DNA of 64,000 bases from Acetomicrobium hydrogeniformans ATCC BAA-1850 (GTDB lineage: Bacteria > Synergistota > Synergistia > Synergistales > Acetomicrobiaceae), in assembly GCF_000160455.2 (NCBI RefSeq), contig NZ_ACJX03000001.1:1002001-1066000 (forward strand), read 5' to 3'. The notes beneath the pieces were generated by a model. It searched no databases. It worked only from the letters and a program-made list of their open reading frames with translations, and was not told the origin of the DNA. A program made the translations under genes and the position numbers. The first letter of the stretch is position 1. Every line of letters starts with the position of its first letter. Positions 17,680-53,137 of the stretch are shown piece by piece.

Positions 17680-19229
17680 TAATGGCGAAAGCCGCGATAG
17701 ATGTCGGAGGTGCGGGATATGCGCCTGATGGGTTCCTGACGAAAGATGAAAAGCCCGTAGGTCTGGAGGAGAATAAAGCCTTCATGTGGTTTGTCACGGC
17801 CGGCGCAGTATGCAACGAGGCACGGCTCTTTGAGGATGACGGATCCTGGAACATCGATGGCAACCCGACGGAGGGGGCCCTCCTGACCCTGGCGAAAAAG
17901 GCGGGCCTGGAGCCTGAAGAGGCCATGAAAAGATGGAAGCGGGTCGATGCTATCCCATTCGAGTCGGATCACAAGTTCATGGCCACCCTCAACGAGTCTG
18001 GCGGGAACCGGAAGGTCTTTCTCAAGGGCGCTCCCGAAGCCGTCCTCCCCAGGTGCGACAGCCAGATGCAAGAGAGTGGGCAAATGGAAGAGATTGACGA
18101 GGGCCTTTGGGAGAGACTGAGCGGAGATCTGGCCGATGAAGGTTTTCGTCTTCTGGCGGTAGCAATCGCCGACGACGCTTCAGGCAAGGATGATATTGAC
18201 TTTGACGATGTTGAGAAGGGTTTCACTCTCATCGGTTTTGCCGCCATCATGGACCCGCCAAGACCCGAGGCGATAGAGGCCGTCGAAGAATGTCGCCGGG
18301 CGGGAATCCAGGTCAAGATGATCACCGGCGATCGAGCCCGGACGGCAGCTATCGCGAAAAGCATGGGGATCAGTGACAGTGAACATGTCATGACAGGACC
18401 GGAGATCGAAAAGACCACCGATGAAGAACTGGCGGATCTCGTCAAGGACATCGATGTTTTTGCCCGGGTGTCTCCGGAACACAAGCTCAGGCTTGTTACC
18501 GCCCTTCAAAAACTTGGGTACATCACCGCCATGACTAGAGACGGCGTCAACGACGCGCCGGCACTGAAAAAGGCCGACATCGGGATCGCCATGGGGAAAA
18601 GGGTACCGAGGCGGCCAAGGAAGCGGCAGAGATGGTCCTCGCCGACGACAACTTCGCCTCCATCGTCCATGCCGTCGAGGAGGGACGGACCGTCTATGAC
18701 AACCTGAAAAAGACGATTCTCTTCATGCTGCCTACCAACGGCGGCGAGGCCCTGGTCATTGTAACGACCATCGCCCTTGGCTTTGTCATCCCCCTCACGC
18801 CGGTACAGGTCCTGTGGGTCAACATGGTGACAGCCGTAACTCTTGCACTGGCCCTTGCTTTCGAGCCCATGGAGCGAGACGTCATGTAAAGACCGCCGAG
18901 GCCGCCCAAGGAGCCCCTGGTACAGCTTTCGATGCTTTTCAGGATTTCCTATGTTTAAGTGCTTCTCATGGCGGGGGCTTTCGGCATGTTCGCGTGGTAC
19001 AAGGCCGGTGGCGCGGGAAACGAGTTCGCTCGTACAGTGGCAGTGAACACCCTGATTATCGGGGAAAGTGTTGGTGTTGCAGATGCCCTTTACATATCTT
19101 CCCCTGATGCAGTCTGTTTTCGGAACGGTTTCGATTGGTGTGGTGGAGTGACTCCGGATTTTAGGCGTGGGAGTGGCCATTTTCCTTGTGGTAGAGGCGG
19201 AAAAAGCCTTTCTCGGCAAAATAACATGA
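17670..19229 (+). pseudogene. Cation-transporting P-type ATPase, C-terminal two thirds, multiply disrupted
   Basis: Homology begins just after where the DKTGT phosphorylation motif should be, so the first 300 or so residues are missing. Recognisable parts are the nucleotide-binding KGAPEAVLPRCD, the hinge MITGDRARTAAIA and TRDGVNDAPALKKADIGIAMG. A one-base deletion in an A run near 18,600 (GGGGAAAAGGG) shifts frame; the sense continues as EAAEMVLADDNFASIV and membrane helices up to 18886. In-frame TAA codons lie at 18887 and 18956. Further frame change and loss occur near 19,070, with a TGA where a Trp is expected in GVVE-stop-LRILGVG. It resembles calcium/cation ATPases of the PMA1/ECA type. 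Its base composition is more G+C-rich than upstream genes. Non-functional. Confidence 0.88.
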
Positions 19230-19302: not shown

Positions 19303-20418
19303 ATGGATCGGTCTAAAATGCTAAAACCCACGATTCTCTCGCTCTCGCTTCTGACAATTGTTTCCACCGGAGCAGTGGCTCCCGCACTCGGAGAGATCGG
19401 AAAATTTTTCGCGTCGTCGGACCACATGCTGGTCCAACTGGTGGCAGTCATGCATGCCGTCGCGCTTGTCCCGTCGTTGCTTCTGGCGGGTCGGGCCGCC
19501 GAGCGGTTTTCGGCAAAAAGGTTATTCTGGACGGGCTGGCGCTTTTTTCTGTCAGCGGCATCGCGAACAATATCTGGCTTTTGTTATTCTCCCGGCTTTT
19601 GATGGGCGTCGGCCTCGGCATGGTCATCCCTTTCTCGACGTCGCTGATTTCCGACCTCTATGAGAGAGAGGAGCGGACCAGGATGATGGGGCTTTCAAAC
19701 TCATTCAACATGCTGGGCGGCATGTTCGCCCTGGTGCTTTCAGGGCAGCTGGCTTTCTTTTCCTGGCGTCTGCCTTTTTTGCTCTATGCGTCGGGGGTTC
19801 CGGTCATGATGATGGTCGCCTTCTTTCTGCCCGGTGAGGTTGCAGGTGAGAAAGATCCCCAGCCTACGGGTGGAAGTCTCCCCCCGAAACGTATATTTCG
19901 TCGCTTTGGAGATGTTCCTTTTTTGTGTGCTCTTTTTTATTCTGACGCCGATTTTAGCCCTGCACATGAAAAACAACGCCCTTGGTGATGTCAGGATAGC
20001 CGGTATAGCTCTCTCCTGTTCCACAATCGGGGGTTTTGCATCAGGCTTTGCCCTGCCGGTGACGAAGAGGGTGTTCAAAAAATATCTCGTTCCCGTCATG
20101 CTGACGGCCATGAGTGCGGGTTTTCTCGTCTTGTCCTGGTTTCCCATATCCGTGGCTGTTTTTGCGGCGTTGCTTCTCATAGGTTTTGCGAACCGGTCCG
20201 TTTACCCGCTGTTTTTTCTCAAAGCCACGGAGCGCACCACGCCGGGAGAATCTGTGAAAGCTACAGCCTTTCTGAGCGCCATGATCTACCTTGGACAGTT
20301 CTCGGCCCCACCCTTCCAGCGGTTTGTCGGCGTCCTTTCCGGGCGGCCCGAGACAGGGTTCCTCTATCTTTTCGTCGCACTTGTGACCCTGACGGTGGCT
20401 TTGGCCCTGTTCGCCTGA
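19303..20418 (+). pseudogene. MFS transporter broken by two frameshifts
   Basis: The start at 19303 gives an MFS N-terminus (ILSLSLLTIVSTGAVAPALG, then LLAGRAAERFSAKRLF). Near 19,530 the sense moves to another frame (LDGLALFSVSGIANNIWLLL, then RLLMGVGLGMVIPFSTSLISD). Near 19,880, in a run of C, it shifts again to FVALEMFLFCVLFFILTP and continues through the last helices to the stop at 20418. Each shift fits a one-base indel. All twelve helices are otherwise recognisable, so decay is recent or the calls are sequencing errors. The many lesions in neighbours favour decay. Confidence 0.85.
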
Positions 20419-52300: not shown

Positions 52301-52660
52301 ATGGCTTGGAACCCCAGAGAAATCATGAAAGAGCTTGAAAGCGGTGTGAAAGAAATCGGCCGTGAACGCCCGGAAGTGGAGGCCTTTATAGAGTTCACGG
52401 GTAAGCTGATGGCGCCAAGGTCTTTGGATCTCAAGGCCAAAGAGCTGATATGCGTTGCCGTGGCAGTATACACCAATTGTAAATATTGCATTGTCACCCA
52501 CGTCTATAATGCCCTTAAGGCTGGCGCTACTGGCGACGAAGTCATGGAAGCTGCTCTGGTTGCCTCGCAGTTTGGAGGCGGTCCTGCTGTAGGCCATAGC
52601 GTCACCTTGGTAAACGAAGCTATCAAGGAGTTCGCCGGCGATTTCGGGAAGAAGTCTTAA
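52301..52660 (+). CDS. Carboxymuconolactone decarboxylase/AhpD-like family protein
   Basis: 119 residues, all-helical. The redox-type active-site motif CKYCIVTHVYNALKAGA (C-x2-C with following His) and the segment LKAKELICVAVAVYTN identify the CMD/AhpD family. Such proteins act in peroxide defence or as unknown thiol oxidoreductases. GAGGTGA lies upstream of the ATG. It neighbours the candidate selenoprotein and both could serve thiol/selenol redox chemistry. Confidence 0.9.
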   Translation: MAWNPREIMKELESGVKEIGRERPEVEAFIEFTGKLMAPRSLDLKAKELICVAVAVYTNCKYCIVTHVYNALKAGATGDEVMEAALVASQFGGGPAVGHSVTLVNEAIKEFAGDFGKKS

Positions 52661-52752: not shown

Positions 52753-52804
52753 ATAGGGGTTACAGAAGTTGACAAGGCAAGCCTAGAAGACAGGAGGGAG
52801 ATTT

Positions 52805-53137
52805 TTGCAAGAAAGGCAAAAAGTCAGGATAAGTTCGAAGTATTGGCTGGAGATGGTCAAAGAACGGGGCGGTCATTTCATGATCGCCATGCGTACCAAT
52901 ATAGCCGGCTGATGAATGGCTTATGTAGGCCCGGCGGGCCTCATAGGCAGCCCCGATGAAGCGGATAGAGAAAATTTCATACCCTTCGTCGTAGAGGGAG
53001 AGGATGACATAACCTGTTGGATCCATAAAGAGGTATTAGAACATTTAAAAGAGGTCTCCCCAACGCGGGAAGGCGACTACTTATTTGCTTCCGACGGAGC
53101 AGGGAGGCTGAGATTCAAGTTCTGCGATCGAAGTTGA
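52805..53137 (+). CDS. Candidate selenoprotein with tandem selenocysteines (CC/Se-motif, HesB-like type)
   Basis: One frame of 111 codons runs from TTG 52805 (AGGAGGG six bases upstream) to TGA 53135, interrupted only by two adjacent TGA codons at 52910-52915 (residues 36-37). Both sides read as one protein: WLEMVKERGGHFMIAMRTNI-AG-[U][U]-MAYVGPAGLIGSPDEADREN, then FIPFVVEGEDDITCWIHKEV. Small families with an invariant CC at this point, in which Cys can be replaced by Sec, are known to me (named CC/Se motif proteins). A hairpin fitting bacterial SECIS rules begins 7 bases after the second TGA. Read naively, the first piece has only 35 residues and the second starts falsely at 52916. If Sec is not used, this is a pseudogene with two stops. 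Confidence 0.7.
52923..52944 (+). promoter_or_regulatory. Candidate bacterial SECIS hairpin
   Basis: ATG-T-AGGCCC-GGC-GGGCCT-CAT folds as a nine-pair stem with a single bulged T and a three-base loop beginning with G. The loop starts 17 bases after the second TGA (20 after the first). A G in the first loop positions and a loop 16-37 bases from the UGA are the accepted bacterial SECIS rules. Confidence 0.65.

Follow-up and report, generated by a model that had tools for sequence, protein, structure and literature searches.

A short reading frame in the genome of Acetomicrobium hydrogeniformans ATCC BAA-1850 is interrupted by two adjacent in-frame TGA codons, which raises the question of whether it encodes a protein with two consecutive selenocysteines (Sec, U) and, if so, what such a protein would do. 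The frame lies in a stretch of 64,000 nucleotides, analysed as a whole and referred to here as the window. A first-pass annotation of this DNA, made from the sequence alone, had described two in-frame TGAs splitting a 110-residue frame that starts at TTG 52805 and is preceded by a ribosome site; both the sequence and its translation confirm the split frame, and the ribosome site is present. The gene product has 110 residues, with full-length homology to 32 other Synergistales sequences. The features of the gene are as follows.

52792 to 52800, + strand: Shine-Dalgarno-like AGGAGGGAG, a few nucleotides 5' of TTG 52805, read directly from the sequence.
52805 to 53137, + strand: Sec-Sec protein gene, with a TTG start and a TGA stop at 53135 to 53137, translated with TGA as U.
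52910 to 52915, + strand: TGA-TGA pair encoding the putative Sec36-Sec37, in frame and adjacent, conserved, and replaced by CC in paralogues.
53015 to 53017, + strand: Cys71 codon (TGT), Cys in 32 of 33 family members and a possible third ligand.

The frequency of such frames was estimated by counting 30-codon/60-codon open frames split by TGA-TGA in the window and in Markov-randomised windows. The window holds two, compared with about 0.5 per randomised window, which is not above chance alone; the significance of the double TGA therefore rests entirely on its conservation. The window's only other long-frame case, a TGA-TGA at 19807, was rejected as a selenoprotein, as it falls by coincidence inside a split MFS-type transporter gene that runs in two frames from 19581 to 20418 (ORFs 19581-19988 and 19834-20418) and is either frameshifted or a pseudogene. 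Another frameshift is suggested near 18.6 kb, where a P-type ATPase-like ORF (17682-18707) has an unusual basic C-terminus, RVPRRPRKRQR.

Conservation was assessed by six-frame searches of 101 relatives and then of 185 Synergistota genomes. Matches to the UU/CC family were found in 32 of the 185 genomes, and the two in-frame TGAs are kept in 30 of these 32, all of them Synergistales; the two were checked and found adjacent in 28 distinct sequences. The first-pass annotation had named homologues with CC, UC or CU at residues 36 and 37 as the check on its reading. CC homologues exist: five genomes with a UU gene also have a CC paralogue, giving four distinct CC sequences (L023, L040, L042, and L044), and neither mixed form was seen in the 32 genomes with family matches. 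One genome (G012) holds a family fragment only, and another (G019; L046 10245-10553) holds only a divergent Phe-Cys form, for which no SECIS and no ars neighbours were found. In close pairs of sequences, substitutions are dominated by third codon positions both 5' and 3' of the TGAs, indicating that translation runs through both halves to give one protein. A maximum-likelihood tree groups all CC copies in one clade (97/99) that lies within the UU sequences; it thus looks as if UU is the ancestral state and was replaced once, as a block, by CC, with loss of the SECIS. Outside Synergistota, no relatives were found in IMG/VR or plasmids, and a contig scan with exact peptide patterns matched only Acetomicrobium UBA5826, these scans being too narrow to claim absence.

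Immediately 3' of the TGA pair, the RNA is predicted to fold into a bacterial SECIS element.

52919 to 52948, + strand: SECIS hairpin, identified from its fold, a synonymous-codon control, pair counts, and its loss in Cys paralogues.

The hairpin consists of a 7 bp lower stem (52919-52925/52942-52948), a bulged T (52926), a 6 bp upper stem (52927-52932/52936-52941), and a GGC loop (52933-52935) that lies 17 nt from the second TGA and 20 nt from the first. Its minimum free energy (MFE) is -20.6 kcal/mol (z = -2.1 relative to shuffles). The published bacterial SECIS model specifies a loop of 3-9 nt with G in its first two bases, an upper stem of 4-16 bp, a UGA-to-loop distance of 16-37 nt, and an MFE of -7.5 or below (PMC13188914 Fig 2), and the window hairpin lies within all four of its limits. 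With the loop 20 nt from the first UGA, a single hairpin is in range of both UGAs. The bulged T, the three-base loop beginning with G, and the 17-nt spacing had been described in the first-pass annotation and still hold, whereas its placement of the hairpin start 7 bases after the second TGA does not: the lower stem begins 3-4 bases after it.

In all 28 distinct UU genes, a GGCCC-NNN-GGGCC or equivalent stem lies at a constant distance from the TGAs. When synonymous codons were resampled 2000 times with the protein held fixed, the resampled genes gave 31±9 contiguous pairs (maximum 66), compared with 207 observed. One stem pair has changed from C-G to G-C in one sequence (L025), and other sequences vary one-sidedly yet stay paired; the loop is CAT in 2 of the 28 elements (L005 and L006), breaking the G rule. 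In the Cys copies the hairpin retains 0-1 contiguous pairs, i.e., the SECIS is lost, and the stem-encoded motif G-P-x-G-L is replaced by G-A-A-A-Y, a change suggesting that the RNA partly dictates the motif. A search against Rfam returned no match. The earlier proposal of a SECIS-directed selenoprotein is thus supported across the family, by a hairpin kept in every distinct UU gene and lost with the Sec codons.

The source genome also encodes the machinery needed for decoding, and the four sel genes that the first-pass annotation had named were all found: selC (tRNA-Sec), selB (374 bits) adjoining selA (574 bits), and selD (330 bits), which has an in-frame TGA of its own and so contains Sec. 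The marks of a bacterial selenoprotein are accordingly present, namely a frame conserved on both sides of the UGA, a bSECIS, sel genes, and Cys homologues. The alternative is that the TGAs are not recoded and that the locus is either a pseudogene or two ORFs, a 35-aa peptide ending at TGA-TGA followed by a 73-aa ORF from ATG 52916. Split frames of this kind are not rare by chance, and in the window an ATG does directly follow the TGAs; however, this ATG is not conserved, being ACG, AGC, or AAT in many relatives, and both TGAs and the full-length homology persist in 30 genomes. Coding selection on either side of the TGAs, Cys at the equivalent positions of paralogues, selection on the SECIS, and a complete Sec machinery further contradict it. 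Conservation led us to reject the chance or pseudogene reading as well as the two-ORF reading, to which we attach hardly any probability. Judged from these sequence comparisons, TGA-TGA is almost certainly decoded as two adjacent selenocysteines.

No Pfam or NCBIfam model recognises the Sec-Sec protein as a family member. The closest relationship is to NF041239, the model of the CC/Se motif family to which the first-pass annotation had linked the protein, a link that is correct but distant. The window protein scores 12.9 bits, below the curated cut-off of 40, and membership was rejected on this basis; 11 of the 33 UU/CC family members match the model weakly (best E 1.5e-4). Profile-profile comparison of the UU family alignment (A1) with NF041239 by hhalign gave 90.6% and E 1.3e-6, placing Sec36 opposite the lone Sec of NF041239; by this comparison the UU family is a distant sister of that single-Sec family. 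Membership of TIGR01911 was likewise rejected, its model giving no match to the UU family; no protein in the 101 relatives exceeds its cut-off. Single-Sec NF041239-type proteins are found in about half of the 101 genomes; most score under the family cut-off, and the curated model seems too narrow. They carry C-terminal Cys-rich tails (e.g., GCSGCK), and one is encoded in the source genome (G000:C1:648240-648500; L069 3241-3501).

AlphaFold modelled the UU protein with a pLDDT of 91 and NF041239 also with confidence. In structure searches, the best eight rows for the UU model were all IscA/SufA/HesB or DsrR, at Z scores of only 3.7-4.4, and the NF041239 model showed the same IscA-type fold at Z up to 7.5, with nothing outside this fold above 2.2. 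NF041239 also aligned with the IscA profile (80%, E 1.4e-5). Direct comparison of the UU family with the IscA profile was weak (E 0.067), so the IscA link rests on the fold and on the sister family NF041239. The UU protein has no PF01521 match, and the C-terminal CxC ligands that are invariant in the IscA alignment (A5) are absent from the UU-family alignment; a search of solved structures with the family profile gave a single unconvincing match (E 0.67). On the strength of the models, the protein is best called IscA/HesB-like in predicted fold and not a PF01521 member. Canonical IscA/SufA/ErpA proteins (PF01521) were found in none of 61 Synergistota genomes (G000-G060) and in 9 of 14 control genomes.

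Such a fold raises the possibility that the protein is an A-type carrier of Fe-S clusters (or of selenium or metal) that replaces IscA and serves cluster repair in ars operons. The absence of canonical PF01521 from the 61 genomes would agree with this, as would the cysteine desulfurase/Sec-lyase-like genes that adjoin the family gene in one family (f6). Against it, the UU family does without the C-terminal CxC ligands of IscA, its patchy distribution (32/185 genomes) is unlike that of a housekeeping Fe-S carrier, and NF041239, which keeps its C-terminal cysteines, would be the better candidate. We consider a carrier function improbable.

Gene context points elsewhere. Ten neighbour proteins of family loci were named with NCBIfam: an ArsR-type regulator, an MTH895/ArsE thioredoxin-like protein, arsenate reductase (ArsC), ACR3 arsenite efflux (Acr3), arsenite methyltransferase (ArsM), a SaoE/SO_0444-like permease (SaoE/ArsP-type), a cysteine desulfurase family protein, a DsbD/ArsG-like protein, thioredoxin, and a TetR-type regulator. 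Of 31 genomes, 21, drawn from at least five families, have ars-type genes adjoining the UU/CC gene, compared with 0 of 20 random 20-kb control regions of the same genomes (Fisher p 7e-7, a value that assumes independence among genomes that are related, some with short contigs, and that was obtained with reference proteins from the same loci). In several families, a thioredoxin gene and a DsbD/ArsG-like gene lie directly 3' of the family gene (L051, L116, and L126). In one family (L042 5353-9495, L040, and L047), the UU gene is flanked by TIGR01977 cysteine desulfurase genes, which also resemble the selenocysteine lyase SclA and occur in two copies in each of two genomes (G033 and G009).

No ars linkage was found at the gene in any of five Acetomicrobium genomes; contig 1 of the source genome does hold a cluster of ArsR, a SaoE-like permease, and ArsE (325.9-331.1 kb), which is not linked to the window gene. 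An adjacent gene in the window encodes an AhpD-like protein.

52301 to 52660, + strand: AhpD/CMD-family protein with a CxxC motif (CMD PF02627, E 2e-19).

This neighbour scores 54 bits against TIGR00778 and falls below the cut-off of TIGR04169. Its adjacency to the Sec-Sec gene in Acetomicrobium is conserved in one further genome (G004), and a functional link is putative. Other neighbours in the window are a CCA-adding-type nucleotidyltransferase/HD protein and a PAS-GGDEF-EAL protein; overall, the window neighbours say little on function.

The retention of the Sec pair across the order, together with its usual ars-gene setting, suggests that the protein probably binds or reduces arsenic compounds. 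In the mechanism that we propose, one SECIS hairpin would direct SelB/tRNA-Sec decoding of both adjacent UGAs, yielding a small cytoplasmic protein with vicinal Sec36-Sec37 on the loop that holds the first ligand Cys of A-type carriers. The vicinal selenols, probably with Cys71, would capture trivalent or organic arsenic, which would then be passed to, or held for, ArsP/SaoE-type or Acr3 efflux permeases; alternatively, they may reduce arsenicals as selenols that thioredoxin recycles. Selenium and arsenic bind each other tightly. Arsenic binding, its chemistry, and the part of Cys71 as a ligand are suggested by the conserved residues and the gene setting, and the arsenic function proposed for relatives may extend to the Acetomicrobium copy, which is not linked to ars genes.

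In the main rival reading, the protein is a Sec-Sec thiol/selenol oxidoreductase: thioredoxin and a CcdA/DsbD-type electron conduit would recycle its diselenide, and its role would be redox defence or arsenate/organoarsenical reduction rather than metalloid binding. The thioredoxin and DsbD/ArsG-like genes 3' of the family gene speak for it, as do the position of the window gene after the AhpD-like CxxC protein and the many redox enzymes among selenoproteins. Yet the predicted fold is IscA-like and not thioredoxin-like, and arsenic regulators and permeases dominate the partner genes. Dithiol or diselenol pairs on adjacent residues, moreover, close into strained rings and typically serve as ligands for soft metals. 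We regard this rival as unlikely, though it is by some way a stronger contender than the Fe-S carrier. Both arsenic binding and a thioredoxin-recycled reductase are compatible with the block change from UU to CC and the accompanying loss of the SECIS. Of the diselenide redox protein first proposed for this locus, the Sec-Sec pair has held up; redox activity is one option, and metalloid binding fits the ars context better. Both that context and the IscA-like fold go beyond what had been proposed. A role of the Sec-Sec family in arsenic handling therefore appears moderately probable, and the best explanation overall, held with similar confidence, is that of an IscA/HesB-like Sec-Sec selenoprotein working in arsenic detoxification.

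Among 119 prokaryotic selenoprotein families inventoried in 2026, none is listed with adjacent UU (PMC13188914), and in the literature searched the only adjacent Sec-Sec was that of algal PDI_e (PMC7539508); no bacterial case was found there, and a mention in two selenoprotein-neighbourhood papers by Haft and co-workers is possible. Because the inventory holds no adjacent UU and algal PDI_e is the sole precedent found, we call this a new selenoprotein family: given our high confidence in the decoding, the gene appears to found an unrecognised family of the Synergistales. Conserved across a bacterial order, such a family would show in nature how two successive UGAs are read by one SECIS and SelB; it would also supply a naturally occurring vicinal diselenol and tie selenium biology directly to that of arsenic. 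Genes of this type are missed or truncated by standard annotation.

Among known systems, the NF041239 'CC/Se motif family (seleno)protein' (Moorella-type) resembles the UU family in its Sec in the equivalent loop and its IscA-like predicted fold, and the two co-occur in the same genomes, the source genome included; NF041239 differs in having one Sec (GUx) and a C-terminal Cys-rich tail. The HesB-like selenoprotein TIGR01911 likewise belongs, according to the literature, to the HesB/IscA superfamily with Sec in the first-ligand loop, but has a single Sec (UxGP). IscA/SufA/ErpA (PF01521) share the predicted fold and the loop G-C/U position, whereas the UU family has no PF01521 match, lacks the C-terminal CxC, and lies in an ars-operon context. 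A functional likeness may exist to the arsenic metallochaperone ArsD, a small cytoplasmic ars-operon protein in which a vicinal Cys pair and a third Cys hold As(III). ArsD has a thioredoxin-like fold, uses Cys only, and has ArsA as its partner. That the single-SECIS UU family is a dedicated arsenic-binding diselenol on an IscA-like fold, the selenium counterpart of ArsD, is a tentative proposal with a little less than an even chance of being right. The SAO/Tso and UXX-star families also place Sec proteins beside metalloid-type efflux genes (Haft et al., as summarised in PMC13188914), and a SaoE-like permease is a common neighbour of the UU gene; they are other families with other motifs, none listed with adjacent UU in that summary. 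The published adjacent Sec-Sec, in the GUGUU motif of algal PDI_e (PMC7539508), occurs in an unrelated eukaryotic protein, described as a PDI subfamily and made by the eukaryotic Sec system.
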